DNA of 64,000 nucleotides from an uncultured Lachnospiraceae bacterium (GTDB lineage: Bacteria; Bacillota; Clostridia; Lachnospirales; Lachnospiraceae), in NCBI GenBank assembly GCA_947625775.1, contig CANQPM010000005.1, positions 1 to 64,000 on the forward strand. Reading direction: 5' to 3'. The position numbers were made by a program, and so were the translations under genes. A model generated the notes under the pieces. The model was not told where the DNA came from, did not search any database, and was given only the letters and a program-made list of their open reading frames with translations. Of the stretch, positions 1,002 through 17,987 are shown piece by piece; within the stretch, counting starts at the first letter, position 1; every line of letters begins with the position of its first letter.

Positions 1002-1385
1002 GTGTTTGAGCAGGATTATGTAATGAGGCTCATTAAAGAGATGGTGCGGGCTATTTTAAAGCTATTATTTAACATTGATGCGGAGTCACCGACGGTAGAA
1101 TCATTGGAAGACAAAGAAGAAAAGGAAACATTGGAAAATCTGTTAGACATGATTGACAATGGTAAAATCAATGAGGCAGAAAATAGCTTATATGATTTGA
1201 CCAGTGATACAGATATGAATAGTTTAGAAATCGCGCTATTATTTTATTCATATTTGAATGACAAAACAGATGATTTTTTAGAAAAAAATGACTTCAGCAG
1301 AGATGAAATCAAATTAGGTCTTGAAAATGTCGCTGACAGATTTGAACTAAGCAGTATTGCAAAAATATTTTTGACAGATTTTTAA
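1002..1385 (+). CDS. DUF6483-like cytosolic protein
   Basis: A 127-residue protein starting at GTG behind an AGGAGA ribosome site. The opening MFEQDYVMRLIKEMVRAI and the acidic helical body resemble the DUF6483 family, which is widespread in Lachnospiraceae and has no known function; I recall this from the N-terminal signature and have not searched. The protein is predicted soluble and all-helical, with two-helix repeats rather like TPR units in the middle. It sits between two small membrane proteins in the same orientation. What it binds or does cannot be said. Confidence 0.6.
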   Translation: MFEQDYVMRLIKEMVRAILKLLFNIDAESPTVESLEDKEEKETLENLLDMIDNGKINEAENSLYDLTSDTDMNSLEIALLFYSYLNDKTDDFLEKNDFSRDEIKLGLENVADRFELSSIAKIFLTDF

Positions 1386-1426
1386 TGAATATGTAAAAAA
1401 TATTAGAAATTTTATAGGAGGAGTTA

Positions 1427-1741
1427 ATGAAAGAACAGAAAATATTTTCATTATTAATAATTGTAATAAATGCTATCGGGGTTATTTGTCTGATTTATTT
1501 TGCTATTCCATATCTTACCCACAGCACTGTGGTAGCCAATCCAAATGCGATGCTGCCTGCAGAGGCATGGGATATGGCGGGTATGGCATTGACGCTTGGA
1601 TTTATCCCGCTTTTAATTGCAAATATTTTATGTTTTGTATTCATAAAAGCAAAACAAAAGCTTGTAAAGTTAATGTTTTTTGTTCCAAGTACAATATGCT
1701 TTATTATTGTGGCAAGCTATTGGATAACATCATTTGCATAA
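1427..1741 (+). CDS. Small three-helix membrane protein
   Basis: A 104-residue hydrophobic protein starting at an ATG preceded by AGGAGG (spacing about 6). Three membrane-spanning segments are visible, roughly residues 6-28, 52-74 and 80-102, with a short loop containing a Pro-Ala-Glu stretch after the first. No family is recognised. An overlapping frame (1486-1773) on the same strand is a shadow. The neighbour at 1778 (QueG-like) has its own strong ribosome site 36 bases downstream, so the two may share a transcript. Confidence 0.6.
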   Translation: MKEQKIFSLLIIVINAIGVICLIYFAIPYLTHSTVVANPNAMLPAEAWDMAGMALTLGFIPLLIANILCFVFIKAKQKLVKLMFFVPSTICFIIVASYWITSFA

Positions 1742-1777
1742 AAACGAAAATCAGAATTTTATCGAGGAGGTAACGCT

Positions 1778-2479
1778 ATGCTTGATAATAGAGCGGTTAA
1801 GAAAATAATGTTTTCGTTAGGGGCGGATTTATGCGGTATTGCAAGTGTAGACAGATTTAATGACGCGCCTAAAGGGTATCATCCTTTGGATATTTTGCCG
1901 ACTTGTAAATCGGTAATTTCTTTCGCCTGCAGGTTTCCTGTTGGAACACTTATATGCAAGTCGCATATTCCATATACAAGGACAAGAAATTCCATCACGC
2001 CTAAAATGGATTCTATTGCTCTTGATTTCTGCATAGAGATGGAAAAAAGAAAAATAATATGCGTTCCTATACCAACGAACGAGAGCCAGTGGGATAAGAA
2101 TACTGACAGATACCGCTCTATTATTTCGCAAAAGCATGCTGCACAGGCGGCTGGATTGGGCACGATAGGAAGACATTCCCTGCTGATAACGCCAGAATTT
2201 GGAAGTATGGTTTGGCTGGGGGCGGTGCTATGCGAGCAGGAATTTGAGGCTGATGAAATGAAAGCTCCTGTTTGTAATGGCTGCAATTTATGTGTAGATG
2301 TCTGTCCCATAAACGCTTTGCAAAATCCAGAAATAAATCAGCAGGCTTGTTGGAATTTTGCATTTGGAGATGATAAAGAGGAGCGGGTTTGGAAAATATC
2401 CTGTCACAAGTGCAGAGATATTTGTCCGTATAATTTAGGGAGTCAAAATTCGCTTGTAGAATTGAATATAGAGAAATAA
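1778..2479 (+). CDS. QueG-like double [4Fe-4S] cluster protein
   Basis: A 233-residue protein with GAGGAGGT upstream of its ATG. It carries a C-terminal dicluster ferredoxin region: CNGCNLCVDVCP at about residues 167-178 and CHKCRDICP at about 210-218, which supply cysteines for two [4Fe-4S] clusters. The region before it contains GLGTIGRHSLLITPEFGS, typical of the epoxyqueuosine reductase (QueG) superfamily. True QueG reduces epoxyqueuosine to queuosine in tRNA with cobalamin and is near 310-380 residues; this shorter protein lacks the C-terminal part, so I call it QueG-like rather than QueG. Such short relatives are common in Clostridia and may be redox proteins with other substrates. There is no queuosine gene nearby. 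Confidence 0.75.
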   Translation: MLDNRAVKKIMFSLGADLCGIASVDRFNDAPKGYHPLDILPTCKSVISFACRFPVGTLICKSHIPYTRTRNSITPKMDSIALDFCIEMEKRKIICVPIPTNESQWDKNTDRYRSIISQKHAAQAAGLGTIGRHSLLITPEFGSMVWLGAVLCEQEFEADEMKAPVCNGCNLCVDVCPINALQNPEINQQACWNFAFGDDKEERVWKISCHKCRDICPYNLGSQNSLVELNIEK

Positions 2480-2562
2480 ATTTTTAATGGATAATAAACT
2501 AATGAAAAAACAAAATAAGGTTTGTTGAAAGTTAGAAAAAATTATAGTGTTGGCTTAAAAAA

Positions 2563-2578
2563 TGTTTCACGTGAAACT
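2563..2578. promoter_or_regulatory. parS: parS site 2 (ParB/Spo0J binding, one mismatch)
   Basis: TGTTTCACGTGAAACT matches the parS consensus at 15 of 16 positions; only the last base breaks the palindrome. It lies in the intergenic stretch between the QueG-like gene and the truncated methyltransferase at 2635. Together with the perfect site at 438 it makes two parS-type sites within 2.2 kb, which is far more than chance allows for a 16-bp motif in 64 kb. Confidence 0.8.
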
Positions 2579-2634
2579 TTTTAAAAGTCGTGTTAAAAAA
2601 ATACAGTCAAATTGACATTTAAAGGAAATATAAG

Positions 2635-2817
2635 ATGAATATTATATGGAATGCGGAAAAATACACGTCGGATTTTTCTTTTGTTCATCAGTATGGGAAT
2701 AATGTGGTTGAATTGATTGATGCAGCTGCAGGCAGTTCTGTATTGGATTTGGGATGCGGAAATGGCGCTTTGACGAAGGTTTTGTATGATAAAGGCTATA
2801 ATGAAAGAATGGGGTGA
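2635..2817 (+). pseudogene. Truncated class I SAM methyltransferase (N-terminal stump)
   Basis: Sixty codons that begin like a complete SAM-dependent methyltransferase: an NAEKYTSDFSFVHQYG opening followed by motif I, SVLDLGCGNGALTKVLYDKG at about residues 35-54. In intact relatives the fold continues for another 150-190 residues with the acidic loop that holds the adenosine ribose and the substrate-binding strands. Here the frame ends six codons after motif I, and the ribosome site of the next gene (GGGGTGATAG) begins at the break. I infer a deletion that removed the 3' part and joined the stump to the next gene. It cannot be an active enzyme. Confidence 0.8.
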
Positions 2818-2821
2818 TAGT

Positions 2822-3472
2822 TTGAAACGGTATTCCGCTTTGTTGGTCTGCAAAGGCGTAGAATACAAAACATTTGTAAATGGCGATATGTATGATGATG
2901 ACGAACTGACTTTCGAAATCAATGGCGTAAAAATATGTGTTGAATTTGACGGCAGCCTTTACATAGAAAATTTTGCCGATTATTCTGATGAACAGCTCAG
3001 TTTTCTGACATTTTATCAAAAGAATGATGCTGCATTTTTGACAAACTATGTTTTCACCTGTTTTATTCCTGTATCTGTGGTTAAAAAAGAAACAGGCGAG
3101 ATGAGTAAATCATTTTTGACAATAGTAAACAGGCATAAAGGCGCGCAGGATAATGCAGCCACTCATCTGTTACAGCTTTTAAATGAAAAATCAGAAATGA
3201 AATATATAGATGATGCAGTCAATGAGCTTCAAAACAAATTAAGCGGCAGATACAGCATATGCATTTGCGGATGCTGTAAATATGGACAGGAAAATCCATA
3301 TGGCGGAGATGCATATTTGAATTATCTGTGTTTCAGAAAAAATAAAGCTAAGTATCTGCAATTTCAAGCGGGTGTTGGTAAATTAGACTGGGAGTTTTTT
3401 ACAGATGAGAAGAATGTTGAAAAAACACGACCTGTTTACGGCTGTGAGGAATTTTTGTCTGTAGTAGGGTAA
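2822..3472 (+). CDS. Unrecognised cytosolic protein, possible orphan immunity protein
   Basis: About 216 residues if translation starts at the TTG at 2822, which has GGGGTGATAG just upstream; upstream ATG codons at 2786 and 2801 are in frame but fall in the tail of the truncated methyltransferase and lack a comparable site. The protein is soluble, with a beta-rich N-terminal half (VNGDMYDDDELTFEINGVKI) and a Cys-rich stretch near residues 153-175 (SICICGCCKYGQENPYGG) ending in LCFRKNK. I do not recognise the family. Size, acidity and its place in a row of small unrelated cytosolic proteins recall immunity genes that gather downstream of polymorphic toxins, but no toxin is visible. Confidence 0.5.
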   Translation: MKRYSALLVCKGVEYKTFVNGDMYDDDELTFEINGVKICVEFDGSLYIENFADYSDEQLSFLTFYQKNDAAFLTNYVFTCFIPVSVVKKETGEMSKSFLTIVNRHKGAQDNAATHLLQLLNEKSEMKYIDDAVNELQNKLSGRYSICICGCCKYGQENPYGGDAYLNYLCFRKNKAKYLQFQAGVGKLDWEFFTDEKNVEKTRPVYGCEEFLSVVG

Positions 3473-3492
3473 TTTTGCGGAAGGATAAAAAA

Positions 3493-3888
3493 ATGTTATT
3501 CAAGATTTTCAATTCACAAGAAGAAAGGAAAAAATATGGTGGTTCAGCGTTTATTGAGATTCAATTTTGCAGACTTCCTATGGAAACTAATATAAAAGAT
3601 ATTGTGGCAGTGGACAGGATATGTCACTGGCAAAACGATTCTTTGTATGTCTATATTGACGATCTCAATGTTTTTTATAAAAAATATAGCCGAATTTTCA
3701 ACTGTGGAATTTATAACAATCTGAAAAAAGGCGGAATGGATATATATGGAATTAACTATTATGATTTGCCGCACATAGATTCTATGATTAAAATGCTTTT
3801 CATGGAAAAACCTGTAGATTATGAAACGTTGGCTGAATGGCTGAATAGGGCAAGGGCGTATAATGGATTTTATATTTTGGGAATATGA
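3493..3888 (+). CDS. Unrecognised small cytosolic protein
   Basis: About 131 residues from the ATG at 3493, chosen because AAGGA stands seven bases before it; a longer form would begin at a TTG at 3475 without a ribosome site. The protein is soluble, with mixed alpha/beta predicted character and many aromatic residues (ISRIFNCGIYNN-type pattern near the middle, an aromatic C-terminus YNGFYILGI). No family is recognised. It follows the 2822 gene after 20 bases and is likely co-transcribed. An immunity-type role is a guess from context only. Confidence 0.45.
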   Translation: MLFKIFNSQEERKKYGGSAFIEIQFCRLPMETNIKDIVAVDRICHWQNDSLYVYIDDLNVFYKKYSRIFNCGIYNNLKKGGMDIYGINYYDLPHIDSMIKMLFMEKPVDYETLAEWLNRARAYNGFYILGI

Positions 3889-4023
3889 GCAATTATGAAG
3901 TCTGAAAATGGATTGATTGAAAAAACTGTGACGTAATTTATAGTTTTTGGTTTTGTTTAACAGCAGAATATTTGTAGGATGTATATTGAAAAAATAAAGG
4001 TCGATAAAGGAGGAGATTTACCA

Positions 4024-4380
4024 ATGTTTAGTGAAATATCAAAATGGCTCGATAATGTATTGGAGGCTGAAATTCCAGATGAGGTTGCAGCATTTGGTTT
4101 TAATCTGTATGATGACGGCGATTGCCGCTGGTCGATGGAATTAGTCGGAGCATCAGAATTTGACGCCGATGAAGACGACTGGCTGTGCAATGAAGTGACA
4201 GACTTTGACACAAGGGAAAACCCTTTCCGCTTGGAAAAAGAAGCGGAATGGGAGGAAATACTTGCAGATGTAATTAGTGCATTAAAAGAGTATCTGAATA
4301 ATGGCAAGTATGCTGATACGCTAAAAGCAAAAGCGGGCATTGGCATCGGATTTGTTGACGGCGATATAGAAATTCTTTGA
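4024..4380 (+). CDS. Acidic cytosolic protein, possible orphan immunity protein
   Basis: About 118 residues from the ATG at 4024, which has AAAGGAGGAG ten bases upstream; the in-frame ATG at 3979 has no ribosome site. The protein is very acidic (FDADEDDWLCNEVTDFD near residues 42-58) with a small beta sheet followed by a C-terminal helix and GIGIGFVDGDIEIL. This composition and length match the general style of contact-toxin immunity proteins, and it lies among other orphan candidates. I do not recognise a named family. Confidence 0.5.
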   Translation: MFSEISKWLDNVLEAEIPDEVAAFGFNLYDDGDCRWSMELVGASEFDADEDDWLCNEVTDFDTRENPFRLEKEAEWEEILADVISALKEYLNNGKYADTLKAKAGIGIGFVDGDIEIL

Positions 4381-4485
4381 TTATGGCAGATTTTGAATAG
4401 GCTTTGGAGGACGTTGCTCAAGGACAAATTTGGTTACGATGTATATTTGAGTAACAGACAAATTAATGTTGAGGGAAAAATAATT

Positions 4486-4902
4486 ATGAGAAATCCAGAA
4501 GAAACAATCGGTAAAATGATAGACAAATCAGGAACAAGCTTTATTGGTTATATAGACAATGAAGGCTATCCAATTACAAAAGCGATGCTAAAACCAAGAA
4601 AAAGAAATGGCATTAAGGAAATATGGTTTTCGACAAATACATCATCAAATAAAGTCAAGTGTTTCAGAAAAAATAACAAAGCCAGTGTTTATTTTGTAGA
4701 CAAAAGATTTTTTAGAGGGGTTAGTTTAATTGGAAATATTGAAATACTGGAAACGCCAGATGCGAAGGAAAGCATTTGGCAGGAGGGAGATGAAATTTAT
4801 TATAAAAAAGGCATAACTGATCCTGATTATTGCGTTCTTAAATTTACGGCAATTAAGGGACGATATTATAGCAATTTTAAGTCTGAGGATTTTGAAATAT
4901 AA
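4486..4902 (+). CDS. Pyridoxamine 5'-phosphate oxidase-fold (PNPOx-like) protein
   Basis: About 138 residues from the ATG at 4486 with GAGGGA nine bases before it; an upstream start at 4393 would add 31 residues of poor coding character. The pattern FIGYIDNEGYPITKAML, then IWFSTNTSSNKVKCFRKNNKASVYF and GVSLIGNIEIL follows the split beta-barrel of PNPOx-like flavin/F420-type proteins (general stress protein 26 group). Members bind FMN or related cofactors or haem, usually as dimers. The substrate is unknown. The neighbours are unrelated small genes, so context gives no hint. Confidence 0.75.
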   Translation: MRNPEETIGKMIDKSGTSFIGYIDNEGYPITKAMLKPRKRNGIKEIWFSTNTSSNKVKCFRKNNKASVYFVDKRFFRGVSLIGNIEILETPDAKESIWQEGDEIYYKKGITDPDYCVLKFTAIKGRYYSNFKSEDFEI

Positions 4903-4915
4903 ATTTTAATCTATC

Positions 4916-4950
4916 TTTATTCAGTGGATAAAACATTAACAGTAACTGCA
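4916..4950. repeat. 35-bp direct repeat, copy 1 (remnant of a GNAT gene 3' end)
   Basis: These 35 bases are identical to 6207-6241. The second copy holds the last codons and the stop of the GNAT gene (FIQWIKH then TAA). Here the same codons stand in a non-coding gap with no acetyltransferase in front, so this copy looks like the scar left by a duplication or recombination event involving that gene. Confidence 0.8.
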
Positions 4951-5049
4951 TTAACTCACACAAGATTTGTTTATGTGATAGTTGTTATGAAAAGTGATGA
5001 CGTGATAAGCGTTTGCTGTCGTGATAAAAAATATTATGGAGGAAATAAA

Positions 5050-5289
5050 ATGTTATGTCCTAAATGTGGTAAAGAAATGCAGAGCGGCGCACTTGGACCA
5101 AGTCAAAAAGGATTAGTATATTGGGCAAGAGATGAATTTTTCAATAGTAAAATTTTTATTTTTATGACGAAACGAAGCGCCGCAAAGAACGGTGCAATTA
5201 TTATACCTGTTCGTTATGGACTAATTGATCATCGTACAAAAGCATGGGCGTGTGAGGATTGTAAATATGTATTGGTAGATTGCAACTGA
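5050..5289 (+). CDS. DUF6487-like zinc-ribbon protein, copy 1
   Basis: A 79-residue protein from the ATG at 5050, with GGAGG eight bases before it; a frame beginning further upstream at 4924 runs through the repeat scar and is not credible. It begins MLCPKCGKEMQSGAL and ends with CEDCKYVLVDCN, so four cysteines in two CxxC pairs would form one zinc ribbon. This layout matches the DUF6487 family of small clostridial proteins, function unknown. A second copy, the same length and nearly identical, lies at 55080; the two differ at roughly a tenth of positions. Confidence 0.75.
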   Translation: MLCPKCGKEMQSGALGPSQKGLVYWARDEFFNSKIFIFMTKRSAAKNGAIIIPVRYGLIDHRTKAWACEDCKYVLVDCN

Positions 5290-5365
5290 ATTATGTTATA
5301 TTAGTTTGCAATGAATAAAGGACGCCCATTGCATATCAAAACTGGTACTTATGGGGTAAGTAAAA

Positions 5366-5713
5366 ATGAATGAATTAAAGAGGAAACTAGATGAAAATTG
5401 TGTTAGGATTATCAAAATAAGTCAAAAAGCATTGTTTGAATTTATATATGAAAAGTTTATTGAAAAACAAGAAGATTATCTTGATGTAGACTCACTTGAA
5501 GTGTCAAACATTTTTGACATCAATTTTGAGCATGGAGAGTTTGTTTTTTGTGCTTTTAAATCAGAAGATGCATACGGTGGAATGCGTCAGTTGCCTAAAG
5601 GAATTGACTTACAGCGGCTGATGGCAAATATACCAGATACTACGTTGACAATGTTCTCTGCTGATAGATATAAAGAATACACAATAGATGAGCTGGTTGA
5701 GTTATCAAGGTAA
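5366..5713 (+). CDS. Unrecognised small cytosolic protein
   Basis: A 115-residue protein starting at an ATG with a purine-rich TGGGGTAAG site upstream. It is soluble, with an N-terminal helical part, an acidic middle (EDYLDVDSLEVSNIFDINF) and a C-terminal helix. No family is recognised. It stands alone between the DUF6487-like gene and the GNAT gene. Like several neighbours it could be an orphan immunity protein, but there is no direct evidence. Confidence 0.5.
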   Translation: MNELKRKLDENCVRIIKISQKALFEFIYEKFIEKQEDYLDVDSLEVSNIFDINFEHGEFVFCAFKSEDAYGGMRQLPKGIDLQRLMANIPDTTLTMFSADRYKEYTIDELVELSR

Positions 5714-5789
5714 CAATAAAAATTCCTATTTTGCAAAGATGAAAGAGAATAGGTTTTTATCAAAAGGATTAATAGTAGAGGTGACGTGT

Positions 5790-6230
5790 ATGATTAGAGA
5801 AATAACGGAAAATGATTTAGACGGATTATTAAAGCTGTATATGCAGCTGCATAATAATCCTATGCCCGAAAAGACGGCTGAACTTTTGCAGATTTGGAAT
5901 GAGATTTTTCAGGATAAAAATCATCATGTGATTGTTGCCGAGGAAAATGGGGAAATTGTGTCCTCATGTGTCTGCGTAATCATTCCAAACCTGACTCACA
6001 ATCAACAGCCGTATGCTTTTATTGAAAATGTGATAACTGATGAAAAATTCAGGAAAAAAGGATTAGCAACGCAATGCTTGAATTTTGCAAAAAAGATTGC
6101 GCAGGAGGAAAATTGCTATAAGATGATGCTGCTTACAGGCTCTAAGGAAGAAAGCACATTGAATTTTTACAGAAAAACGGGATATAACAGCGAGGACAAA
6201 ACCGCATTTATTCAGTGGATAAAACATTAA
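5790..6230 (+). CDS. GNAT-family N-acetyltransferase
   Basis: About 146 residues from the ATG at 5790; GAGGTGACG lies just upstream, while earlier in-frame codons lack a site. The acetyl-CoA pyrophosphate-binding motif is clear in VITDEKFRKKGLATQCL (R/Q-x-x-G-x-A type, about residues 85-101), followed by the alpha-4 region with NFYRKTGY near the C-terminus. The enzyme would transfer acetyl from acetyl-CoA to an amine; the substrate cannot be read from the sequence. Its last codons and stop form copy 2 of the 35-bp repeat at 6207-6241. Confidence 0.85.
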   Translation: MIREITENDLDGLLKLYMQLHNNPMPEKTAELLQIWNEIFQDKNHHVIVAEENGEIVSSCVCVIIPNLTHNQQPYAFIENVITDEKFRKKGLATQCLNFAKKIAQEENCYKMMLLTGSKEESTLNFYRKTGYNSEDKTAFIQWIKH

Positions 6231-6241
6231 CAGTAACTGCA
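6207..6241. repeat. 35-bp direct repeat, copy 2 (inside the GNAT 3' end)
   Basis: Identical over 35 bases to 4916-4950. It includes the last seven codons and stop of the GNAT gene plus eleven bases beyond, so the repeat crosses the gene end. The two copies are 1.29 kb apart in the same orientation and flank the DUF6487-like gene, the 5366 gene and the GNAT gene. Confidence 0.8.
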
Positions 6242-6270
6242 CCAAATCAAAATTTCAGGAGAAAAACAAA

Positions 6271-6879
6271 ATGAACCAAAAAGAAAGAATGTTAAACGGT
6301 CTGCCGTATAAAGCATGGATGGATAATCTTGACGCTGAGCGAGATGCCTGCAAAGAGATTATCTATGAATTTAATATGTTAAAGCCGAGTGAACGAAAAA
6401 GGATTCCCGAAATCCTTAAAGAGCTATTTGGCAAAACTGGAAATAACATATTGGTTGAGCCGCCGTTTCATTGTGATTACGGGTGGAACATTGAAACGGG
6501 CGAAAACTTTTATGCTAATTACAATCTTACAATTTTAGACGTTGGGAAAGTGACGTTTGGCGATAATGTTTTAATTGCGCCGAATGTGTCAATTTACGCC
6601 GCAGGACACCCCATCCATCCTGACAGCAGAAATTCAGGGTATGAATATGGGATTCCCGTTACAATAGGGAATAATGTGTGGATAGGAGGCAGCGTCGTAA
6701 TTCTGCCAGGTGTCACAATAGGCGATAATGTCGTAATCGGTGCGGGCAGTGTAGTCACAAAGGATATTCCAAGCAATGTAATCGCAGCGGGCAATCCGTG
6801 CAAAGTCGTCAGGGAGATAACAGATGCCGACAGAGAGTTTTATTATAAGGACAGGAAGTTTGATGTGACGGATTTTTAA
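6271..6879 (+). CDS. Sugar O-acetyltransferase, maltose/galactoside acetyltransferase family
   Basis: A 202-residue protein with AGGAG before its ATG. The N-terminal helical cap (MLNGLPYKAWMDNLDAERD) and the left-handed beta-helix built of hexapeptide repeats (IGNNVWIGGSVVILPGVTIG, IGAGSVVTKDIP) are those of the LacA/Maa/NodL group. The loop YAAGHPIHPDSRN carries the catalytic histidine. These trimers move acetyl from acetyl-CoA to the 6-OH of sugars. The C-terminus (GNPCKVVREIT) is complete, so the gene looks intact. The sugar acceptor cannot be assigned. Confidence 0.9.
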   Translation: MNQKERMLNGLPYKAWMDNLDAERDACKEIIYEFNMLKPSERKRIPEILKELFGKTGNNILVEPPFHCDYGWNIETGENFYANYNLTILDVGKVTFGDNVLIAPNVSIYAAGHPIHPDSRNSGYEYGIPVTIGNNVWIGGSVVILPGVTIGDNVVIGAGSVVTKDIPSNVIAAGNPCKVVREITDADREFYYKDRKFDVTDF

Positions 6880-7482
6880 ATCTGTTTTTTCAGTTTTGTC
6901 AAAATGCAAGTATGTAAAGAAGAAAAGATAATTTATCAATTTTAATAAATTAAAAAGGATATATTGATATAATAAACGTTTTATTTGTACTATAAAAATC
7001 ACATGAAAAATTTTGTAGTAGATATAATTAAATATGTAAGATTCAGATAATGATTGCAAGAGTTTGCGTATTTTTATAATATGCAGACTCTTTTCATTTT
7101 CAAAAAATACAAAAAGTCATTAATCACATATTTAAAAGTGACAAATAGTCATAAATACAAATTGTATAGGGTGTATTATTGTGATAAGTCGATTCGTATG
7201 ATTTATGGACAATTAAAAAGTTATATAGTATAAAGTCATTTATTTTGTAGTAGGATATATCAGAAAATGTTTTGGAATTTTATCTAAGTAGCGAAAAGAT
7301 TATTTTGGCAGTTAATAAGTAGGAGAGAATTTGTTTTACAGATTATTATGGTGTGCCAGACCAATGTAATTATAAAAATATTAAATGAGAAATTAATAGA
7401 TAAAAAGATGTTTTAGTGTGAGATGTTTAACCGCAAATATTAGAATCAAAAGATAAAAAATGATTGAAAAGGGAGACGCAAA
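6880..7482. other. 600-bp AT-rich gap upstream of the restriction locus
   Basis: No gene is supported here; one long minus-strand frame (6634-7059) is a shadow of the acetyltransferase. A terminator-like hairpin lies at 7058-7092. Between it and the HTH gene the sequence AGTCAT recurs near 7115, 7148 and 7231, and TGACAAATAGTCA at 7139-7151 is a perfect dyad with 4-bp arms. Controller proteins of restriction systems bind short GACT/AGTC-type boxes, so these could be operators for the HTH gene at 7483; this is a guess. Confidence 0.4.
7058..7092 (+). terminator. Putative intrinsic terminator
   Basis: AAGAGTTTGC and GCAGACTCTT form a 10-bp stem with one G-T pair around a 15-base AT loop, followed by TTTTCATTTT. 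It lies 180 bases after the acetyltransferase stop and 390 bases before the HTH gene, so it would close the upstream transcript. Confidence 0.5.
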
Positions 7483-7974
7483 ATGGATTCACAGGAAATA
7501 TTTATAAATAATATTAATAGATTGGCATCTTATTACAAATTGAATACTTATAAGAAGATGGCAGAATTTTTAAGTGTCACTGAAGATTCACTAAAACACT
7601 GGCAAAATAAAACAAGATGCCCAACTCTAAAAAAGATTGATCAGATAAGCAATAGAATAGGGTGTTGGTCGTATGCATTGATACAAAAAGATGGTGAGAT
7701 TTTTGCAGAAATCGAATTTCCTCAAAATGATTCTAGGGAAATTTTGATAAGAAATTTGAAGGAAATATTTTTGCAAGAGGGGCGGTTTTCATGGAATGAT
7801 AAAGCTGCGCTATTTTGCTGTTTTGTTAGTGTAGATGTTTTAAAGTCTTATTTTAGGGAAAAAAATTTTAAAACGCCACCATTAAAGAAATTAGATGAGA
7901 TGGCGTCTGCATTAGGTATACCCGCATATGAACTAATCAAGGAGGTCAGAGCAAATGAGAAAACAGATACCTGA
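7483..7974 (+). CDS. Tandem XRE-like HTH protein, probable controller of the restriction locus
   Basis: A 163-residue soluble protein with GGGAG upstream of the ATG. Two regions look like XRE-type five-helix DNA-binding units: residues ~10-62 (YKKMAEFLSVTEDSLKHWQN, then LKKIDQISNRIG) and ~118-158 (LKKLDEMASALGIPAYELIK). The reading frame runs 20 bases into the methyltransferase-nuclease gene at 7955, so the two are translationally coupled. Small HTH proteins in front of restriction genes usually act as C (controller) proteins that delay nuclease expression until DNA is methylated. By position this is the likely role; a paired fold in one chain would be unusual because C proteins are normally single-domain dimers. 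Confidence 0.7.
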   Translation: MDSQEIFINNINRLASYYKLNTYKKMAEFLSVTEDSLKHWQNKTRCPTLKKIDQISNRIGCWSYALIQKDGEIFAEIEFPQNDSREILIRNLKEIFLQEGRFSWNDKAALFCCFVSVDVLKSYFREKNFKTPPLKKLDEMASALGIPAYELIKEVRANEKTDT

Positions 7975-10339
7975 AAAAATAAAGATTAGATTAAATAAAA
8001 TAAAAACAGCTATTGAAGATGTTCCTAATACTGTTCCTAATGAAATGCGTATGACTTTCAATTTTAAAGGCAGAAAGTCTCCTATTATAGCTGAGAAAGT
8101 GATAGAAGCAATAAGTGATGGCAGTGATGTTATGTATGATCCCTTTATGGGTTCTGGTTCATTTGTTTATGCTGCAATGGGAAAAGTAAAAAAGATTTAT
8201 GCTACGGAATTGGACAATTATACATTTAATGCAGTAAGTGTATTGATGAATAAAGTAGATATGCTTAAATTAAGTGAATTATTTAATGCTGTTAAAAAAG
8301 ATGTATATGAACAGATAATGAAATTATATGAAACGTCATGTTGTGGCCGCAAAAATTATATAAGTAAAGTTTTGTTTGATCCTGAAGAAGGCAAAGAAGG
8401 ATATTTTAATCCGTCTAATAATAGGGAAATAGTAAATGGAAAAAATATAAAACTTATAGAAAAATGTCCAGTATGTGGTGGAAAGTCCAAAAAATTTGAT
8501 AATGATGATTATCAAAAATTAGTTAGACTCGAAAAGGTAAACGTAGATAGATTTCCCAGAGATCAATATATCGTAAACAGCAGGATTAATATTACATCGT
8601 CAACAGGCGCAGATAAATATGATAGGATTTTTACGCAAAGAAATAAAATTGCTTTGTTGACTTTACAAGATGCAATTAATAAACTTGAACCATCAGGCGA
8701 AAAAGATGTATTAGAGCAAGTTTTGGTTGCCTCTATTTCTCTTGCAAGAATTGCTATGTATGGTTCTAGCACCGATATATTATATCATGTAGTGGGGCAT
8801 GGCGCGCAGGATATGAATGTTTGGCAGCTTTTTGAGGAAAAATATAAAAGTTTTTGTAAATTTAAGTCCGTTTATAGCAATAAACAAATAGGAACAACAG
8901 ATTCAACCGTAATAATTGCTAATAAGGATTATGCGGAGTATATTAAAGAAAATCCTGATTTGAAAGTAGATATTATATATACTGATTTTCCATATACTGA
9001 CCAAGTTCCATATTTAGAAAGAAATCAATTGTACCGTATTTGGTTGGAAAAGTTTTATGATTCTAAATATGCATTAACAGAAGATATGTTAAAACAAGAA
9101 ATTGTCCTGACAAATGCAGAATCAAGAATTGAAAAAAGGGATATAGAGAATTACTATAAGGATATTGACAATATGTTTTCTCATTTTTATAAAGTATTAA
9201 ATGAAAATGGGCTTGTGTTTCTTACAATGAAACTGGGGAAAGCAAAGTATTTCAAAACTTATATAGAAATTGTAAATTTAGCCCGCAAAAATGGGTTTGA
9301 GTATGCATATCAAATTGGAATTGAAAAAAAAGATCCGACAATAAGGAAGCAATCAGCTTTTACCAATACATTTATGAATGAGATGATAGTTGTTTTTTAT
9401 AAATTACCAAAAGAAAATAGATATTGGTATATTGGTAATGAAAATTATGAGTTCTTACTTGTTAAAAAAGTGTATTTATACCTGACTCGAACAAAAGAAT
9501 ATGTTACATTGTCGAGCGCTGTAACGTTAGTATGCAATGATTTAAAGTCAAAATATTCATATCTAGCTAATGAACAAGATATATTGAAAATAAAAACGCT
9601 GTTACAGCAATATTTTAAGGTAGATGCGGGTTGCATACAAATTGATAATAATCAATTATATTTAGATATTGAGGATACGACAGATTTATATACAAAATTG
9701 TATGATTTAATGCCAATCTTTATTAGACAGCTTTTGGATAGTAAAGGCAGGTTTGTATTAGAAGACGTTTACTTTGAGTTGGTGAATTCGTTATGTGATG
9801 GTAATCCAAAGACCATTGCACAGATTTTAGAAGATGAAAACCATCAAAGAGATATTGGTAATTTAATATTAAATTATTGCGAAAAAGATGGGCAGTATTA
9901 TGTTGAAAGGAAGGATATTAGCAAACCTAATGACAATGCGATTGATATATCAACATTAAGTGGTATAGATTTTGAAATTTTGGTGCAAAGTTTACTTAAA
10001 AAGGAAGGATATGAAAATGTTATAAAGATGGGAGGCGCAGGTGATCTGGGCGTTGATATTATTGCCTCTAAACGTCAACAGGATAGATTGTTACATTATA
10101 TTTTTCAGTGTAAGCGTTGGGCTTCAAATGTTGGTTCTGATCCTATACAGAGATTATATGCTGAAAGGATGAGGAGAGGGCTAGACTATGCAGTTTGTGT
10201 GACAACCTCTGGGTATACTAAAGATGGCAAAAAGGTGGCATTTGATCTTGAGGTTGAAACTGTAGATGGAAATCAGTTGATGCAGCGTCTTAACAAATAT
10301 TTTCCAGGAGAGTATTATAATGGAATTCAGGATATGTAG
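7955..10339 (+). CDS. DNA methyltransferase fused to an Mrr-type restriction nuclease
   Basis: A 794-residue protein whose ATG overlaps the HTH gene by 20 bases, with AAGGAGG about 11 bases before it. The N-terminal half is an amino-methyltransferase: motif I YDPFMGSGSF with Asp62, and motif IV TDFPY at residues 343-347, where Phe replaces the first Pro of the usual DPPY. Between them lies a Cys-containing insert (YETSCCGRKNYISKVLFD, later EKCPVCGG) that would bind zinc, as in Zn-ribbon adenine methylases of the COG1743 kind. The C-terminal domain (residues ~670-785) is an Mrr/PD-(D/E)XK nuclease: FEILVQSLLKKEGYENV, Asp701 in GDLGVD, and QCK with Lys720. Methylation and cutting thus sit in one chain, as in type IIG enzymes. 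A helical linker (~540-660) separates them. Confidence 0.85.
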   Translation: MRKQIPEKIKIRLNKIKTAIEDVPNTVPNEMRMTFNFKGRKSPIIAEKVIEAISDGSDVMYDPFMGSGSFVYAAMGKVKKIYATELDNYTFNAVSVLMNKVDMLKLSELFNAVKKDVYEQIMKLYETSCCGRKNYISKVLFDPEEGKEGYFNPSNNREIVNGKNIKLIEKCPVCGGKSKKFDNDDYQKLVRLEKVNVDRFPRDQYIVNSRINITSSTGADKYDRIFTQRNKIALLTLQDAINKLEPSGEKDVLEQVLVASISLARIAMYGSSTDILYHVVGHGAQDMNVWQLFEEKYKSFCKFKSVYSNKQIGTTDSTVIIANKDYAEYIKENPDLKVDIIYTDFPYTDQVPYLERNQLYRIWLEKFYDSKYALTEDMLKQEIVLTNAESRIEKRDIENYYKDIDNMFSHFYKVLNENGLVFLTMKLGKAKYFKTYIEIVNLARKNGFEYAYQIGIEKKDPTIRKQSAFTNTFMNEMIVVFYKLPKENRYWYIGNENYEFLLVKKVYLYLTRTKEYVTLSSAVTLVCNDLKSKYSYLANEQDILKIKTLLQQYFKVDAGCIQIDNNQLYLDIEDTTDLYTKLYDLMPIFIRQLLDSKGRFVLEDVYFELVNSLCDGNPKTIAQILEDENHQRDIGNLILNYCEKDGQYYVERKDISKPNDNAIDISTLSGIDFEILVQSLLKKEGYENVIKMGGAGDLGVDIIASKRQQDRLLHYIFQCKRWASNVGSDPIQRLYAERMRRGLDYAVCVTTSGYTKDGKKVAFDLEVETVDGNQLMQRLNKYFPGEYYNGIQDM

Positions 10340-10342
10340 GCG

Positions 10343-10369
10343 CAAATGCGAGGAATCTCCTCGCATTTG
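10343..10369. terminator. Bidirectional terminator-like hairpin between convergent genes
   Basis: CAAATGCGAGGA at 10343-10354 and its exact complement at 10358-10369 form a 12-bp stem with a 3-base loop. It fills the 32-base gap between the stops of the methyltransferase-nuclease gene (+) and the double methyltransferase gene (-). There is little U-run on either side, so efficiency is uncertain, but the position argues for a shared terminator. Confidence 0.7.
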
Positions 10370-10371
10370 TG

Positions 10372-13251
10372 TCATTTCCATTTAGCTGTAGAAGAATCCC
10401 AAGTTAAATGTTTATCAAAGATGTCAACTAGAGAAGAATACTTATTTGAAAGTTTAGATAACCAGCCATTTTGGATTAAAATTTCCATAAGTCCATTGTC
10501 ATATAATTCGGGAGTGGACATTGGACCATTTGATTTCACCATAAATTTAGCCTGGCGAATAATGTTGTGTTCAATTTCAGATATGTCTTCTTCCGCGCTG
10601 TGTTTTATAGGAGCAGCGCTTTTTGAGAAAATAAGTACAGAATCACCGTTTAACGATTTTTTAGGACTAATAATGTTTTTTAAAGTAACAGTCTTATCAA
10701 TATGTATTTGTGTGATAAATCTAAAACAATTTTTTTCTAAGATAGTAATTAATTCGTTCCAAACATTTAAATTACTATCGTGGAAATACAAGCATAAATA
10801 ATGGTTTGTTTTCAGTTTATGAGAACATATATGAAAAACTTGTTCCAACAAATTAAAATAGTCCTCTTTGTCTTTGTGGCGGGAAGGTGCAGAGGAAACA
10901 ATTATTTCATCTTTTAGGTTATAATCCAAATTTAAAAATGGTTTGTATAACTGCATATATTCAGAATATAAAACTTGCTCTAAATAGGGGGGATCAGTGA
11001 TAATTAAATCCACACCATTATTTGGTATATCCTGTTCGGTTATTGACTGACTGCCTTTTTGCAATAATAAACATTTGCAGGGAGAAAGAGAATCATATGA
11101 TTCAACTATTTCGGAACTCATGTAATTTTCCTTCATAAATGGTATAACTTCATAAAAATTTTTGATTTTTTTTATATAAATATCTATAATATTTTTTTCA
11201 ACACAATCGGTTTTAGGTATCCATAACGGCCATTGAGAATTTGAATGTTTATCGGTTATCTTACATAAATGCAATACTGACATTAGGATATATTTTAAAA
11301 TAGATTGATATCTTTCACTATATTTGTTAATTATGCTCAATATTTCATCTAGTACAGATAAATTGCGTCCTGTAAATATGTTTTTAATATCATCGTTTTC
11401 AGTTACCGCTATCTTAGAGTTATAGAGTAAAGCAGTATTGCTTATATTTTTTAATACTGGGGTGATATTAATTTTTGCATAATCACTTTCATCAGCAGCC
11501 TTAATGCCCTTTTTTGTACATTTGCATGTATAATTGATGGTTTTAATTGTTATCTTTGAGTCTGTTCTCTCTGGCTTGTCAAATATTACTTTTGAAATAA
11601 TGCCAGTTTTTTTACATATTGGACAAGTGGTTTCGTAGTAGTGAGACAATGTGCTCAGCTCAGATATAAAATTTTCGAGCTCTTTTTTAATATTAGGAAT
11701 GGTATTAACGGATAATAAAAGTTTTGAAATGAATAATGGCATATCATTAATATCACAACCAATAGCACAACGAGATGAATCTGTTTTAATGGCTTCAAGT
11801 GTTGTTACTCCAGAACCAAGAAATGGATCAAAAACAACATCACCTTTATTTGACAGAGAATCTATTAATGTATCACAGATATTAAATGCTTTTTGTGACC
11901 AATATATATGAGAGTTATACATTGAATTGTTTTTACTTGGCAATAAAGTGCATAAAGTTTTTTTAAGTGAATCAATGTTAACTTGATTTAAATTTTTATC
12001 ACCGCATAGTATCAAATATTCAAGAACTTTTTTCTGTTCGCTATTTCGATGGTTCGCATGATTATAATTTTGTGTTACTACATTAACACGAGCGCTTGTA
12101 TAATATTTTTGCGCCAGTTCTACTAATTCATCAATTGAAATAGTATATCTGTCCGTAGCCTGTATTTCTCTGTCTTGAGGATATGCATAACTAATGGCAA
12201 GGTTTGTATGTGCCTGCGCACAAAAGCTGATTAAATTTTCTAATGATTGCTTAGCTGAACCATGTTGGCTTAGTTTTGATTGATAGCGTCCTTCAGTGTA
12301 TAAACCTTTGGTATAACCATTTTTGGTAACAGTTAATAATGGATATTCATATTTAGCAGCTACATTCAGCAGATGATAATATCTTGAATACTGCATATCC
12401 GTATATGGAGGATCTGCATACACTAAACCTATGTTAGAAAAAAGTTTTTCGTCTAATAATTCCTCAAAATTAGAATTAAAGATCATGTTCTTTCCAGAAA
12501 ATTTGGAAAGAGGAACACAAATATATTCTTTAAATTTTTTAATAAATAGTTCATAAATATTTTTTTTCCTTTGAACAAAAAGACGACTTTGATTTTTTTC
12601 AGGATTTAATGGCTGAGCCATATGACCATCTTTTGAAAAAACCGTTTCCTTCATTGCATAAAACAAGCATGAAAGCAGGGCAGTTTTATATTTTATAAAA
12701 CTTGTGTTAATCATTTTGATGATACAATCAATGTCAAGTGCCTGGATAATACCATAGTAGTTTGTAGCATAATATGTTGTAAATAGATAAAAATCTTTAG
12801 TGTTTTTTACGCTATCAACCGTTAATGGTGATTTGGTTATTTGAGAGTATTGATTGTTCCAAACAGTTGGATATGAATTATAAAGAGCAATTAATTCTTC
12901 ATAATTTTCATTATCTAATGCTTGCTGTTCATGGTTTATAAAATGTATAATAGGATTTGCCTGTTTTTTGACAATAGCAGCGTATTCTATATCCAGTGAA
13001 TGAATAAGGTCAGAGGAGGATTCTATCTCTGTCTGGTTTAATATAGCGTCAGCTATTATGCTTGCGTAACACTCGGCATCATTCGCATAGACTTGATAAT
13101 TATCCCTAAACATATTACTTACAGCAGCAGAACCTGAAAAAATATCTAAAATGGCTTTGCCATCTTGTATATACGGTTCTATGTTTTTATGTATAAAACC
13201 GCTAAGATTATTTTTACTGCCCTGATAGTTTAAAATAGTAAAATTCCCCAT
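10372..13251 (-). CDS. Two-module DNA methyltransferase with C-terminal winged-helix-like region
   Basis: A 959-residue protein starting at the ATG at 13251 with GGAGG eight bases before it; an in-frame GTG 15 bases upstream overlaps that ribosome site and is rejected. Module 1 (about residues 1-420) is a D12/Dam-class adenine methyltransferase: ILNYQGSKNNL, motif I ILDIFSGSAAV, motif IV ADPPY with Asp280. Module 2 (about 440-860) has motif I FDPFLGSGVTTLEA (Asp475), a Cys-rich insert (CPICKK ... TCKC) and motif IV TDPPY (Asp753). Its insert and following ISKVIFD match the insert of the methyltransferase-nuclease at 7955, so those two modules are homologous. The last ~95 residues look like a winged helix. 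Two-module methylases (as with FokI) modify both strands of asymmetric sites; that is the likely role here. Confidence 0.85.
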   Translation of the reverse strand: MGNFTILNYQGSKNNLSGFIHKNIEPYIQDGKAILDIFSGSAAVSNMFRDNYQVYANDAECYASIIADAILNQTEIESSSDLIHSLDIEYAAIVKKQANPIIHFINHEQQALDNENYEELIALYNSYPTVWNNQYSQITKSPLTVDSVKNTKDFYLFTTYYATNYYGIIQALDIDCIIKMINTSFIKYKTALLSCLFYAMKETVFSKDGHMAQPLNPEKNQSRLFVQRKKNIYELFIKKFKEYICVPLSKFSGKNMIFNSNFEELLDEKLFSNIGLVYADPPYTDMQYSRYYHLLNVAAKYEYPLLTVTKNGYTKGLYTEGRYQSKLSQHGSAKQSLENLISFCAQAHTNLAISYAYPQDREIQATDRYTISIDELVELAQKYYTSARVNVVTQNYNHANHRNSEQKKVLEYLILCGDKNLNQVNIDSLKKTLCTLLPSKNNSMYNSHIYWSQKAFNICDTLIDSLSNKGDVVFDPFLGSGVTTLEAIKTDSSRCAIGCDINDMPLFISKLLLSVNTIPNIKKELENFISELSTLSHYYETTCPICKKTGIISKVIFDKPERTDSKITIKTINYTCKCTKKGIKAADESDYAKINITPVLKNISNTALLYNSKIAVTENDDIKNIFTGRNLSVLDEILSIINKYSERYQSILKYILMSVLHLCKITDKHSNSQWPLWIPKTDCVEKNIIDIYIKKIKNFYEVIPFMKENYMSSEIVESYDSLSPCKCLLLQKGSQSITEQDIPNNGVDLIITDPPYLEQVLYSEYMQLYKPFLNLDYNLKDEIIVSSAPSRHKDKEDYFNLLEQVFHICSHKLKTNHYLCLYFHDSNLNVWNELITILEKNCFRFITQIHIDKTVTLKNIISPKKSLNGDSVLIFSKSAAPIKHSAEEDISEIEHNIIRQAKFMVKSNGPMSTPELYDNGLMEILIQNGWLSKLSNKYSSLVDIFDKHLTWDSSTAKWK

Positions 13252-13763
13252 AATATAATCCTCCACATAGCATTATAAAATGAATGTGGTAAAAAGGCAA
13301 TCACAAATAAAAAAATAATTTAAAAATTTTCGCATCGAGAAAAGTTTTAAAATAAAAATGCATATGGCTCTTTTTTGCATTTGGATATAATCATGAAATC
13401 AGTTCTTGAAAGAATAGCAAAATGAAGCTCTAAAGTTAAGGAAGAAACATAAATTGCTTAAACCTTTAAAGAAACTTTTGCATAGACGTAAAGGTTTGAT
13501 GGCGGGTTGAAAGGTGAGTGTGGCTATGATAGTATAGTAATGTAACAAATAAATGAAGATTTGTAATGGAAAAAAATCAAATGAAAAATCCAAGGAAAGG
13601 AAATTCATTATCTGATTATGAAAAATATATGAAATTTGATTCTGTAAATAAATTTGAAAAGGCGTAGGGGTATATGTTAATATTAATAAATTAATCTTGA
13701 TTGAATAAATGCAGAATGTTGTAAAAATTAGTGAAAATTACATATTGTGAGGAAAAATATTAT
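13252..13763. other. AT-rich gap, one possible 33-codon peptide
   Basis: This 500-bp gap separates the restriction locus from the secreted protein gene. It is strongly AT-rich and shows no recognised family. A 33-codon frame at 13566-13667 on the plus strand (MEKNQMKNPRKGNSLSDYEK...) has a charged, protein-like composition but only a weak ribosome site (GAAGATTTG). A minus-strand frame at 13399-13608 is Phe/Leu-rich without a ribosome site and is taken as chance. Confidence 0.4.
13566..13667 (+). CDS. Possible 33-residue peptide
   Basis: A short frame ATG-to-TAG encoding a very hydrophilic peptide with a high share of Lys, Asn, Glu and Asp, ending in FDSVNKFEKA. There is no clear ribosome site. 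It might be the remnant of a longer gene or a small real peptide. Listed only because the composition differs from the surrounding AT-rich sequence. Confidence 0.2.
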   Translation: MEKNQMKNPRKGNSLSDYEKYMKFDSVNKFEKA

Positions 13764-14405
13764 ATGAAAAAGACAATTCTTTTATTGGCAGGCATTATTT
13801 GTTTATGCGGTATTCTTTTTGGGTACGGCAGCAGTCGTAACAAGACTGATACAAATAATAATATGACAATCCAAAACAGTATTTCCGCAGCGGAGGAAAA
13901 TACTTCTGCAGATAACACGTTTGATGCCGAAAGCGAAAGTCAGACAGAAAATTCAGATATAAGTAGCGCTGATGAATCGCTAGACATATTTGAGAAATTT
14001 GATTTATTGGCTGATTTTTCAGACAAATTTGGAATTTCAGTTTTGATGCCCGAAAATAAAAACTGGATTGCAGATGCAGAATACTGTTTAGAAGACGACA
14101 ATAATTTGAAAATAACATACCACGATTTGATTGCAGAAGCGGACGGCACTTTACTGGCATCTAAAAACAACAGCCTGAGTCTGCCCCAAATTGAATATAA
14201 TAAATCGCTTGATGAAAATTGGGAAGGAAAAACCACCAGTGGGCAGTTAATTTTGATAAAGATACAGCGTGAAAACAATAATGGAAAAATGGCGCTTGCG
14301 ACTTGGGAATATAATGAGTGCCAATTCGCAATTTTTGGGGAATACAAAGAGGATTACCAAGTACTTCCAAAAGTTGCAATAGGGGTTATCCAGCATTTGG
14401 AGTAA
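13764..14405 (+). CDS. Secreted or membrane-tethered protein of unknown function
   Basis: About 213 residues from the ATG at 13764, preceded by GTGAGGA. A signal peptide is clear (MKKTILLLAGIICLCGILFG). The position where a lipoprotein would have its Cys reads FGYGSS instead of a form like FGCGSS; one base change (TGC to TAC) would explain this, so the lipid anchor may have been lost. A low-complexity Ser/Glu/Asn/Thr linker (~residues 30-75) leads to a beta-rich domain (FGISVLMPENKNWIADAEY ... FGEYKEDYQVLPKVAIGVI). No family is recognised. The architecture resembles the lipoprotein at 58047: signal, acidic linker, beta domain. Confidence 0.65.
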   Translation: MKKTILLLAGIICLCGILFGYGSSRNKTDTNNNMTIQNSISAAEENTSADNTFDAESESQTENSDISSADESLDIFEKFDLLADFSDKFGISVLMPENKNWIADAEYCLEDDNNLKITYHDLIAEADGTLLASKNNSLSLPQIEYNKSLDENWEGKTTSGQLILIKIQRENNNGKMALATWEYNECQFAIFGEYKEDYQVLPKVAIGVIQHLE

Positions 14406-14478
14406 CAAGTTAAATCATTGTTTAAATAGGGTTTCGCAAACACATAGAAAATAAATGAAGCGCAAAGGAGAAAAACTA

Positions 14479-15336
14479 ATGAACAAAATTTTAAAAGGAA
14501 TCAAGGATTTAGGCAAGAAAAAATCTGAACCTGTCAATGAAAAGCCAATGAATAAAATTTTAAAAGAAATTAAGGATTTAATAAAAAAAAATCTGAAAAA
14601 ATATCTGCCAGAGGTTAAGGAAACAGACTTAGAGGAAAACGGTGATATTTTCTATATGAATGGCAAAAACGGAACAGAGTTTGACTGGCATGTAAACGAT
14701 TGTTTGTCAAGTTTTATGGTTTTTTATAATGATAAAAATAACATGGGCGCAGTCAAACTAACCCTTTATAATAACGGCAGTATTTCAATTTATCTTTATG
14801 GGGACAGCGGCAGCAGGCTGGTTAATGAGGTCAAGGCAAGTTGCAAAGCGTCTGAGGAAGAAATATTAGAGCTGGCAGTTATTTTAAAGGCGGAAATGGA
14901 CGACAAGGGAATTTTTGACAGCAGCATTGAAAAAGTAAGCGCGGATATTGAGATTGACAAAGATAAAATCGAGAAGTTTAAGGAGGATAAAAAGTATTTT
15001 GACAAAATAAAGGCGAAAATGGAAATGCTTAATATGTGCGCTGTAGTTTCCGCTAAGATTACTAAGGAAGGCTTTAAGGCTGGATATATGGTCAGGCGGA
15101 CACCGCATAATGAAATAGACAGCGGCTGGCAGTTTTTTGCAGGAAATGAAGATGATGATTACGCTAATGACGTGAAAAATTTTGAATTGGTGACATTGGG
15201 GTATTTGGACAGATTGGATTCAGATGTTTTAAAGTATATAGAAAATCCTGTCGGGACAGAACTCATAAGAGTGTCCTCCAGTGATTTTGAGAAGGATAAC
15301 CACACAAAGGGCATATATGTCGAAAAGAGAGAGTAA
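14479..15336 (+). CDS. Imm33/DUF2185-domain protein with duplicated N-terminus
   Basis: About 285 residues from the ATG at 14479 (AGGAG nine bases upstream). The C-terminal ~90 residues (from CAVVSAKITKEGFKAGYMVR) contain DSGWQFFAGNEDDDY and NPVGTELIRVSS, diagnostic of DUF2185, known as immunity protein Imm33 of polymorphic toxin systems. The middle part is a separate alpha/beta region. The first 46 codons are an internal repeat: MNKILKGIKDLGKKKSEP is followed 23 codons later by MNKILKEIKDLIKKN, a 69-base tandem duplication. Imm33-type proteins neutralise a partner toxin in the cytosol; no toxin is present, so this is an orphan immunity candidate. Confidence 0.8.
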   Translation: MNKILKGIKDLGKKKSEPVNEKPMNKILKEIKDLIKKNLKKYLPEVKETDLEENGDIFYMNGKNGTEFDWHVNDCLSSFMVFYNDKNNMGAVKLTLYNNGSISIYLYGDSGSRLVNEVKASCKASEEEILELAVILKAEMDDKGIFDSSIEKVSADIEIDKDKIEKFKEDKKYFDKIKAKMEMLNMCAVVSAKITKEGFKAGYMVRRTPHNEIDSGWQFFAGNEDDDYANDVKNFELVTLGYLDRLDSDVLKYIENPVGTELIRVSSSDFEKDNHTKGIYVEKRE

Positions 15337-17434: not shown

Positions 17435-17522
17435 GAGATAAATATAAATTTTTGTATTGCAGAACTGGTGTTTGTATGGTATAGTTGTACTGGTTGATTA
17501 TTTTATTGCAGAGGACAGGCAG

Positions 17523-17987
17523 ATGAGTGAGATAGCGTTTGATGTAAAAGCGTATGCCGCGGTTCTGGCGGGGCTGGTTATAGCGGCGGCTGTAGTTATG
17601 GCGGTATGCAGGTATTATAAGAGGGGCAGGTATTTAAAGCGTTTTGACGAGATGGACGGGCATGATTTTGAGTATTACTGCGCGGGGCTTTTGGAAAAGC
17701 ATGGCTTTTGCGAGGTGGAGGTTACGCGGGGGAGCGGAGATTACGGCGTAGATATCCTTGCCCAAAAGGAGGGCGTGACTTATGCCATACAGTGCAAGCG
17801 TTACAATGGTCCTGTGGGAGTGAAGGCTGTGCAGGAGGCGTATGCGGGAAGGGATTATTATGACCGAATGGTAGGGTGCGTGCTTACCAATCAGTATTTT
17901 ACCAAAGCGGCGGTTGAGGCGGCGCAGAAATTGAAGATACTTCTCTGGGACGGAGAATATTTGGAGGAGCTTGAAAATGAGGGCTGA
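17523..17987 (+). CDS. Membrane-anchored Mrr-type restriction-endonuclease-like protein
   Basis: About 154 residues from the ATG at 17523 with GAGGA before it. One membrane helix (about residues 11-32) is followed by basic residues and an Mrr_cat domain: MDGHDFEYYCAGLLEKHGF, Asp in GSGDYGVDILA, and QCKRY, the D...QxK active-site pattern of this PD-(D/E)XK branch. The same fold is the nuclease domain of the protein at 7955. Stand-alone Mrr-like proteins with one membrane helix are common in Clostridia and their role is not known; a defence role or DNA turnover at the membrane are both possible. It is followed closely by ylmH. Confidence 0.8.
   Translation: MSEIAFDVKAYAAVLAGLVIAAAVVMAVCRYYKRGRYLKRFDEMDGHDFEYYCAGLLEKHGFCEVEVTRGSGDYGVDILAQKEGVTYAIQCKRYNGPVGVKAVQEAYAGRDYYDRMVGCVLTNQYFTKAAVEAAQKLKILLWDGEYLEELENEG

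Follow-up and report, generated by a model that had tools for sequence, protein, structure and literature searches.

According to a published review, the nuclease of an ordinary restriction–modification (RM) system shows no similarity to the methylase that accompanies it (PMC4081073). BpuSI is described as an RM enzyme that is bifunctional and has two further methylases, M1 and M2, at its side; its own methylase is weak and the protector role lies elsewhere, and its methylase part is required for cleavage (PMC3817140). In MhoVII, D12-type and YhdJ-type modules are reported to be fused and to mark GATG and CATC (PMC12898733). Here, we describe a locus from an uncultured gut bacterium of the Lachnospiraceae, located in a 64,000-nucleotide stretch (the window hereafter; assembly GCA_947625775.1, contig CANQPM010000005.1, positions 1 to 64,000 of the forward strand) and comprising a regulator gene (gene 1), a methyltransferase–nuclease gene (gene 2) and a double-methyltransferase gene (gene 3), all with open reading frames (ORFs). 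Judged by its predicted products, an RM enzyme and two methylases, the locus is a BpuSI-like variant of the Type II RM systems and no new defence type. Its interest lies elsewhere, in a motif change (DFPY) fixed in gene 2 and in a two-half PvuII-like nuclease encoded by its relatives. The original prediction had found the layout to match no known kind, a view that does not hold, as the available accounts of BpuSI (PMC3817140), MhoVII (PMC12898733) and BtgZI (PMC4081073), together with AlwI, give precedents.

The two large genes are convergent and together encode the three methyltransferase modules and one nuclease first read from the sequence, an assignment that Pfam bears out. Gene 2 (7955..10339, + strand, 794 aa), delineated from its ORF, Pfam and BLASTP, encodes a Zn-insert methyltransferase followed by a C-terminal Mrr-type PD-(D/E)XK domain. 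It matches N6_N4_Mtase (7.8e-11) and Mrr_cat (5.3e-22; residues 666–777, 9950..10285, + strand) and thereby carries methylase and nuclease domains in one polypeptide, the one-chain arrangement of Type IIC/IIG enzymes, which is likewise present in two of three genes of a diverged sister group. By profile and by its aligned GDxGVD...QxK motif, kept in every gene 2 whose Mrr part is in the data, the C-terminal domain is of the Mrr nuclease type. Gene 3 (10372..13251, − strand; longest ORF to 13266, 964 aa) encodes two methyltransferases in a single chain, matching MethyltransfD12 (2.1e-14) and N6_N4_Mtase (7.5e-22). Similarity to its orthologs begins at Met6 (13251), a better start than 13266 and the one at which the locus had originally been closed. 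Pfam and ortholog alignment place a D12-class adenine methyltransferase in module 1 (11995..13251, − strand), whereas module 2 (10564..11994, − strand), defined by BLASTP and ortholog alignment, is an N6/N4 methyltransferase that has a Zn insert and shares homology with gene 2; DPPY is conserved in both modules, occurring twice in each of the eight gene 3 sequences aligned.

The proposed homology between the Zn inserts was likewise upheld, gene 2 and module 2 aligning at 25% identity across 484 columns (BLASTP 5e-20) with YET.C...ISKV.FD in register and with Zn-insert cysteines invariant in ten gene 2 and eight gene 3 orthologs. Such homology over the methylase part is expected only for combined RM enzymes. 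A PDB sequence search with genes 2 and 3 returned weak methylase matches and nothing else. In L121, one of the related loci described below, gene 3 is divided into two genes: the D12 part stops with TAG at the domain boundary, and the module 2 gene starts at TTG behind a Shine-Dalgarno-like GGGAGG. Gene 3 is thus a fusion of two methylases; this split, together with the D12/YhdJ fusion of MhoVII, favours one methylase per strand, and the two modules probably mark one strand each of an asymmetric site.

Comparison with the described systems reveals both shared and distinct features. Like BpuSI as described (PMC3817140), the locus combines a methylase–nuclease protein with two more methylases, in BpuSI one per strand. 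However, the nuclease of BpuSI is N-terminal and its motif NPPY (PMC3817140), whereas the window locus has a C-terminal Mrr nuclease, a Zn insert, DFPY, fused companions and, in its relatives, a second nuclease. BtgZI resembles gene 2 in its N-terminal alpha-class methylase and C-terminal PD-(D/E)XK variant with Q, a likeness drawn from a description whose available part makes no mention of DFPY (PMC4081073). MhoVII (in the account available, PMC12898733) and AlwI resemble gene 3 in having two methylases per chain and complementary non-palindromic motifs, but their nucleases are different, and the Zn insert belongs to module 2 of gene 3. Relatives of the D12 module occur in plasmids and a phage, in M.LlaI/LlaJI-type and BfiI-like systems, whose nucleases differ in being of the PLD, LlaJI or BglII type.

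Full-length copies of the large genes were found in none of 144 related genomes other than the window's own. Two short peptide patterns, run against 84,980 species genomes, yielded eight further loci. When 398 genomes of the phylum, 397 of the family and 392 of the order were searched with profiles, another four loci of this type (L094, L119, L120 and L121) came to light, as did the sister group in three genomes (L122, L123 and G1412). The complete set is also present, at 86 and 83%, on a faecal scaffold of 8.2 kb that lacks annotation and is deposited as 'Bacteriophage sp.'; no phage gene was seen on it. The group totals 14 loci, two of which (L048, carried by Petralouisia muris, and L049) are 99.5% alike. 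Among viral contigs, protein and alignment scans resting on short peptide patterns found no relative, and the phylum search recovered two genomes with a lone 552-aa methylase (about 1e-41) whose partner gene is absent.

Co-occurrence of the two large genes, put forward earlier as a check, was found throughout: in 12 of the 14 loci gene 3 follows gene 2 in convergent orientation, and in the other two (L052 and L054) the contig ends first, which gives 12/12 where the contig reaches. All three sister-group genomes likewise have both genes, which are in tandem in L122 and L123; in G1412 they lie at the ends of two contigs. The Mrr domain is found in two of the three, the G1412 protein (L125, 712 aa) being shorter and without an Mrr match. 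In a tree of the two families, the sister-group genes join gene 2 with a support of 1.0 and gene 3 weakly (0.313); by this comparison, the two Zn modules, as paralogs, diverged from each other before this locus type and the sister group separated. In the neighbourhood of the sister-group pair, PADLOC detects Gabija genes, immediately adjacent in L123 and close by in L122, and AAA_15 and UvrD ORFs resembling Gabija lie nearby in G1412, in several pieces (L124 and L125 genome). A DUF4365 gene, possibly an accessory part, stands directly beyond gene 3 in two loci (L041:6782-7840 and L050:15469-16527).

The most distinctive feature of gene 2 is its motif IV (residues 344–347, 8984..8995, + strand), which locus comparison identifies as DFPY instead of DPPY. 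TDFPY is present in 14/14 loci at identities down to 49%, whereas the three sister-group genes have TDPPY and other retrieved relatives have [DNS]PP[YF] at a position chosen by eye from the pattern match; for L093 (a fragment) and L068 (one ORF of a split gene) the motif lies outside the available piece. Because the sister-group genes, which the tree joins to gene 2, and the other relatives have PP, DFPY is, by this sequence comparison, derived and fixed in the group. As the motif departs from the canonical [DNS]PP[YFW] of Type IIC/IIG enzymes, gene 2 is better termed a derived relative of these. Motif I reads DPFMGSG in 12/14 loci and EPF in L051 and L094. The methylation step of gene 2 has probably been lost or changed, and its methylase part, thus altered, may perhaps now act as a reader. 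In BpuSI, according to the available description, a motif change abolished SAM (S-adenosylmethionine) binding, methylation and cleavage alike (PMC3817140), so the methylase module of gene 2 may matter for cutting either way.

In six of the 14 loci (L041, L048, L049, L050, L052 and L055), a further ORF of about 315–330 aa, truncated in L041 by the end of the record, ends at gene 1. The two halves of its product are homologous (98.6% probability, E 1.1e-15, 32% identity over 114 columns, with D..ExK aligned) and non-identical, and DA...EYK (D..EYK) occurs in 12/12 halves. PF09225, with a cut-off of 25 bits, was passed by L041 (28.3) and L050 (27.7), L049 having been scanned only in part; of the second halves compared alone with PvuII, three of six gave weak matches with E no higher than 0.1, the lowest being 0.00034. 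The gene apparently encodes a natural single-chain heterodimer of two PvuII-like halves. It resembles engineered single-chain PvuII (Simoncsits 2001), which is reported to have two PvuII-type subunits per chain, but is unlike it in being natural and in having halves that differ (32% identity). It also recalls Type IIT enzymes which, in the partial account available, combine two different catalytic sites in a polypeptide with two methylases. The open-licence PMC literature yielded no natural two-half PvuII, no Mrr–methylase fusion of the gene 2 kind and nothing relevant to DFPY.

In the window, this gene is represented by a pseudogene (7198..7482, + strand), recognized by blastn and in a three-frame view; neither it nor the operator described below had been noted in the original prediction. 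Its start codon, located from the upstream alignment, is kept at 7198, the interior is mostly deleted, and several stops and frame changes are present. Nucleotides 262–305 of the L048 gene correspond to 7209–7251 (84%) and nucleotides 745–980 to 7254–7482 (66%, 1e-11), so that, beyond the start codon, part of the first half survives together with an eroded, stop-containing second half. In L054 the remnant keeps both ends around an internal deletion, and no trace was seen in L051, L053, L094, L119, L120 and L121; across the 14 loci, the gene is therefore open in six, a remnant in two and not seen in six. The loss in the window appears recent, since its nearest relative, L048, has an intact copy. 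The locus had another nuclease gene originally, or at least in near relatives, which has decayed in the window. Beyond these loci, the protein was found in 0/391 class genomes at 1e-5, a set without a known carrier in which an empty result shows nothing; the PF09225 profile matched 0/88 genomes and 0/14 controls and is likewise uninformative. The plasmid collection contained no PvuII-like match, and the phage collection a single record, of the same locus.

Substitution patterns indicate which of the two nucleases is likely to be in use. Between the window and L048, the ratio of non-synonymous to synonymous rates (dN/dS) is 0.059 for gene 2 (0.024 for its Mrr part) and 0.073 for gene 3; between L051 and L053, both without the PvuII-like gene, it is 0.068, with 0.11 for Mrr. 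Because gene 2 is still under purifying selection, its Mrr-bearing product probably serves as the active nuclease. Parsimony assigns 22 non-synonymous and 57 synonymous changes in gene 2, and 36 and 74 in gene 3, to the window branch as a whole, which spans the loss of the PvuII-like gene. Gene 2 is still constrained on this branch, somewhat more loosely than on that of L048.

The explanation that we favour as a whole, and regard as reasonably likely, is a mobile Type II RM locus directed at an asymmetric site, in which gene 2 would cut and gene 3 would protect. The two fused adenine (or N4-cytosine) methylases of gene 3, evident as domains, would each protect one strand, while the methyltransferase-type module of gene 2 would find the site and its Mrr-type domain, likewise evident as a domain, would cut nearby. 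Methylation by gene 3 alone would separate self from foreign, because gene 2, with DFPY at motif IV, has probably lost or changed its own. Gene 1 would bind the upstream operator and time expression so that methylation precedes cutting. In some relatives, the operon starts with a second nuclease, the PvuII-like single-chain heterodimer, presumably reading the same site; in the window this nuclease has decayed, and the locus would persist with genes 2 and 3. An extension of this scheme, which we advance only tentatively, is that two dissimilar restriction enzymes acting at the same asymmetric site share a single protecting double methylase. One would be a nuclease in which a former methylase, its catalytic motif changed to DFPY, serves as reader and is joined to Mrr; the other would be an accessory, natural single-chain PvuII heterodimer. 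With the accessory repeatedly lost and the reader–nuclease retained, a single RM system would harbour redundant cutters. Several observations weigh against the favoured explanation. The PF09225 assignment is weak, with L048 (15.6) and L055 (20.1) below the cut-off and L052 without a match, and PDB sequence searches with the PvuII-like protein brought up no PvuII. On the window branch, gene 2 took relatively more amino-acid changes (22:57) than on the L048 branch (7:38). In L120, gene 2 is frameshifted ahead of Mrr while gene 3 is whole, which implies that the locus can lose the gene 2 nuclease too. Lastly, KsgA of the same genome has NLPY; as a non-proline residue is compatible with methyl transfer in that other family, DFPY is no proof of lost methylation.

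This last point also speaks for the closest rival, a somewhat doubtful one in our estimate, which takes gene 2 for a normal Type IIC/IIG enzyme, one that both methylates and cuts, DFPY being tolerated, perhaps with a changed product, and gene 3 for the two-methylase companion as in BpuSI. KsgA belongs to a working methylase family, the motif I sequence DPFMGSG is kept in 12/14 loci, the stretch around DFPY is almost invariant, as would fit a working base-binding pocket, and cleavage by BpuSI is described as needing its methylase part (PMC3817140). However, neither the sister group nor the other relatives share DFPY, which is fixed in the group, and the weak methylase of BpuSI is, as described, not its protector, so that selection on such a domain may be slack (PMC3817140). 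A Type IV-like role, in which gene 2 would recognize a methylated base through its methylase-like part and cleave modified phage DNA through Mrr, draws on the methyl-directed nucleases that the accessible part of a review includes in the Mrr family and on the PADLOC type IV model, which matches gene 2 weakly (E 0.048) and a sister-group gene at 7.7e-10. We consider it unlikely, as Type IV systems carry no cognate methylase, whereas the constant partner of gene 2, a double methylase belonging to the same family, would generate the target within the host's own genome. Slightly less probable still is a chance adjacency of two unrelated systems, the PvuII-like nuclease with gene 3 and a solitary gene 2; the coming and going of the PvuII-like gene would fit, but genes 2 and 3 stand together without it in six loci and also in the sister group, whose genes the tree joins to gene 2 and, weakly, to gene 3. 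A fragment of a BREX- or DISARM-like defence was suggested by the PADLOC match of module 2 to PglXI (8.1e-25) and by a haloarchaeal relative of gene 2 that adjoins a BrxA-family gene. This we regard as highly improbable, given that the ORFs listed beside the window locus and the relatives' loci include no PglZ-, Brx- or helicase-type gene and that the closest genes are nuclease-fused.

Gene 1 (7483..7974, + strand, 163 aa), which overlaps gene 2 by 20 nt, encodes a tandem helix-turn-helix (HTH) regulator, as its ORF, Pfam and comparison of its halves indicate. Its Pfam HTH matches are weak and all under cut-offs, and profile scans matched no controller (C)-protein profile; its halves, however, score 71 against each other versus a shuffle mean of 24.3 (sd 4.6; 0/500 shuffles reach 71), so that the controller-like tandem HTH of the original prediction stands as an internally duplicated unit. 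Upstream of the operon lies a conserved near-palindromic operator, AGTGACAAATAGTCA (7137..7151, + strand), found as an exact pattern, with an AGTCA half-site ~22 bp further upstream. Among the loci whose upstream sequence is available, the pattern AGTGACnnATAGTCA is exact in 8/8 that have a close ortholog of gene 1 and occurs in none of the other five: L053, L119 and L120, which lack both gene 1 and the operator, and L094 and L121, whose gene 1 is diverged (37–39%). L041, whose record lacks the upstream stretch, stands outside this count, which is a description and no independent test because the pattern was drawn up after viewing these same sequences. It has a single match in the whole 3.75 Mb genome assembly and, with up to one mismatch, one in the window against 0.05 expected. 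The operator is likely a C-box-like site for gene 1. Upstream of gene 3 (13267–13420), a conserved stretch containing CGATGCGAAAA and TTGTGATTGC..TATAAT was spotted by eye in several loci and is maybe the gene 3 promoter.

Between the convergent genes 2 and 3, folding predicts a hairpin with a 15 bp stem and a 3 nt loop (10340..10372, not assigned to a strand). A hairpin sits between the two stop codons in 9/9 loci folded, by minimum energy alone without a shuffle control, and in L053, L055 and L094 it occupies the same position with a different sequence. The shared terminator proposed earlier is in keeping with this, the hairpin being a probable bidirectional terminator for both genes. An Rfam scan of 6800–14000 gave no match.

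Mobility of the locus is supported by an empty site and by phage-like genes beside two copies. In G017, of the same genus, the left flank is 97% and the right flank 92% identical, and about 184 bp replace 6879–13494; three of the genus matches were examined in detail for this site. Beside both L050 and L094 stand a D5-type primase and a capsid gene, that of L050 being a phage one; ribosomal S9 and a tyrosine integrase accompany them at L050, and a serine recombinase does so at L094. We take these surroundings to resemble phage satellites. Within the window, positions 1–14000 have a G+C of about 0.29–0.35, below most of it. Adjoining the locus is an Imm33-domain protein of the immunity type (14455–15336, 2.2e-23), and at 17457–17987 lies a further, independent Mrr_cat protein of 176 aa (4.1e-30), a small type common in the genus.

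If the proposed organization is correct, a natural single-chain, two-half relative of PvuII would be available for studying how a cutter of palindromes becomes a cutter of asymmetric sites. The group would further represent a lineage whose nuclease is coupled to a methylase domain bearing a fixed motif change, where the sister genes retain DPPY. With one nuclease repeatedly lost and the other retained, the idea of redundant cutters would be directly testable in these loci.

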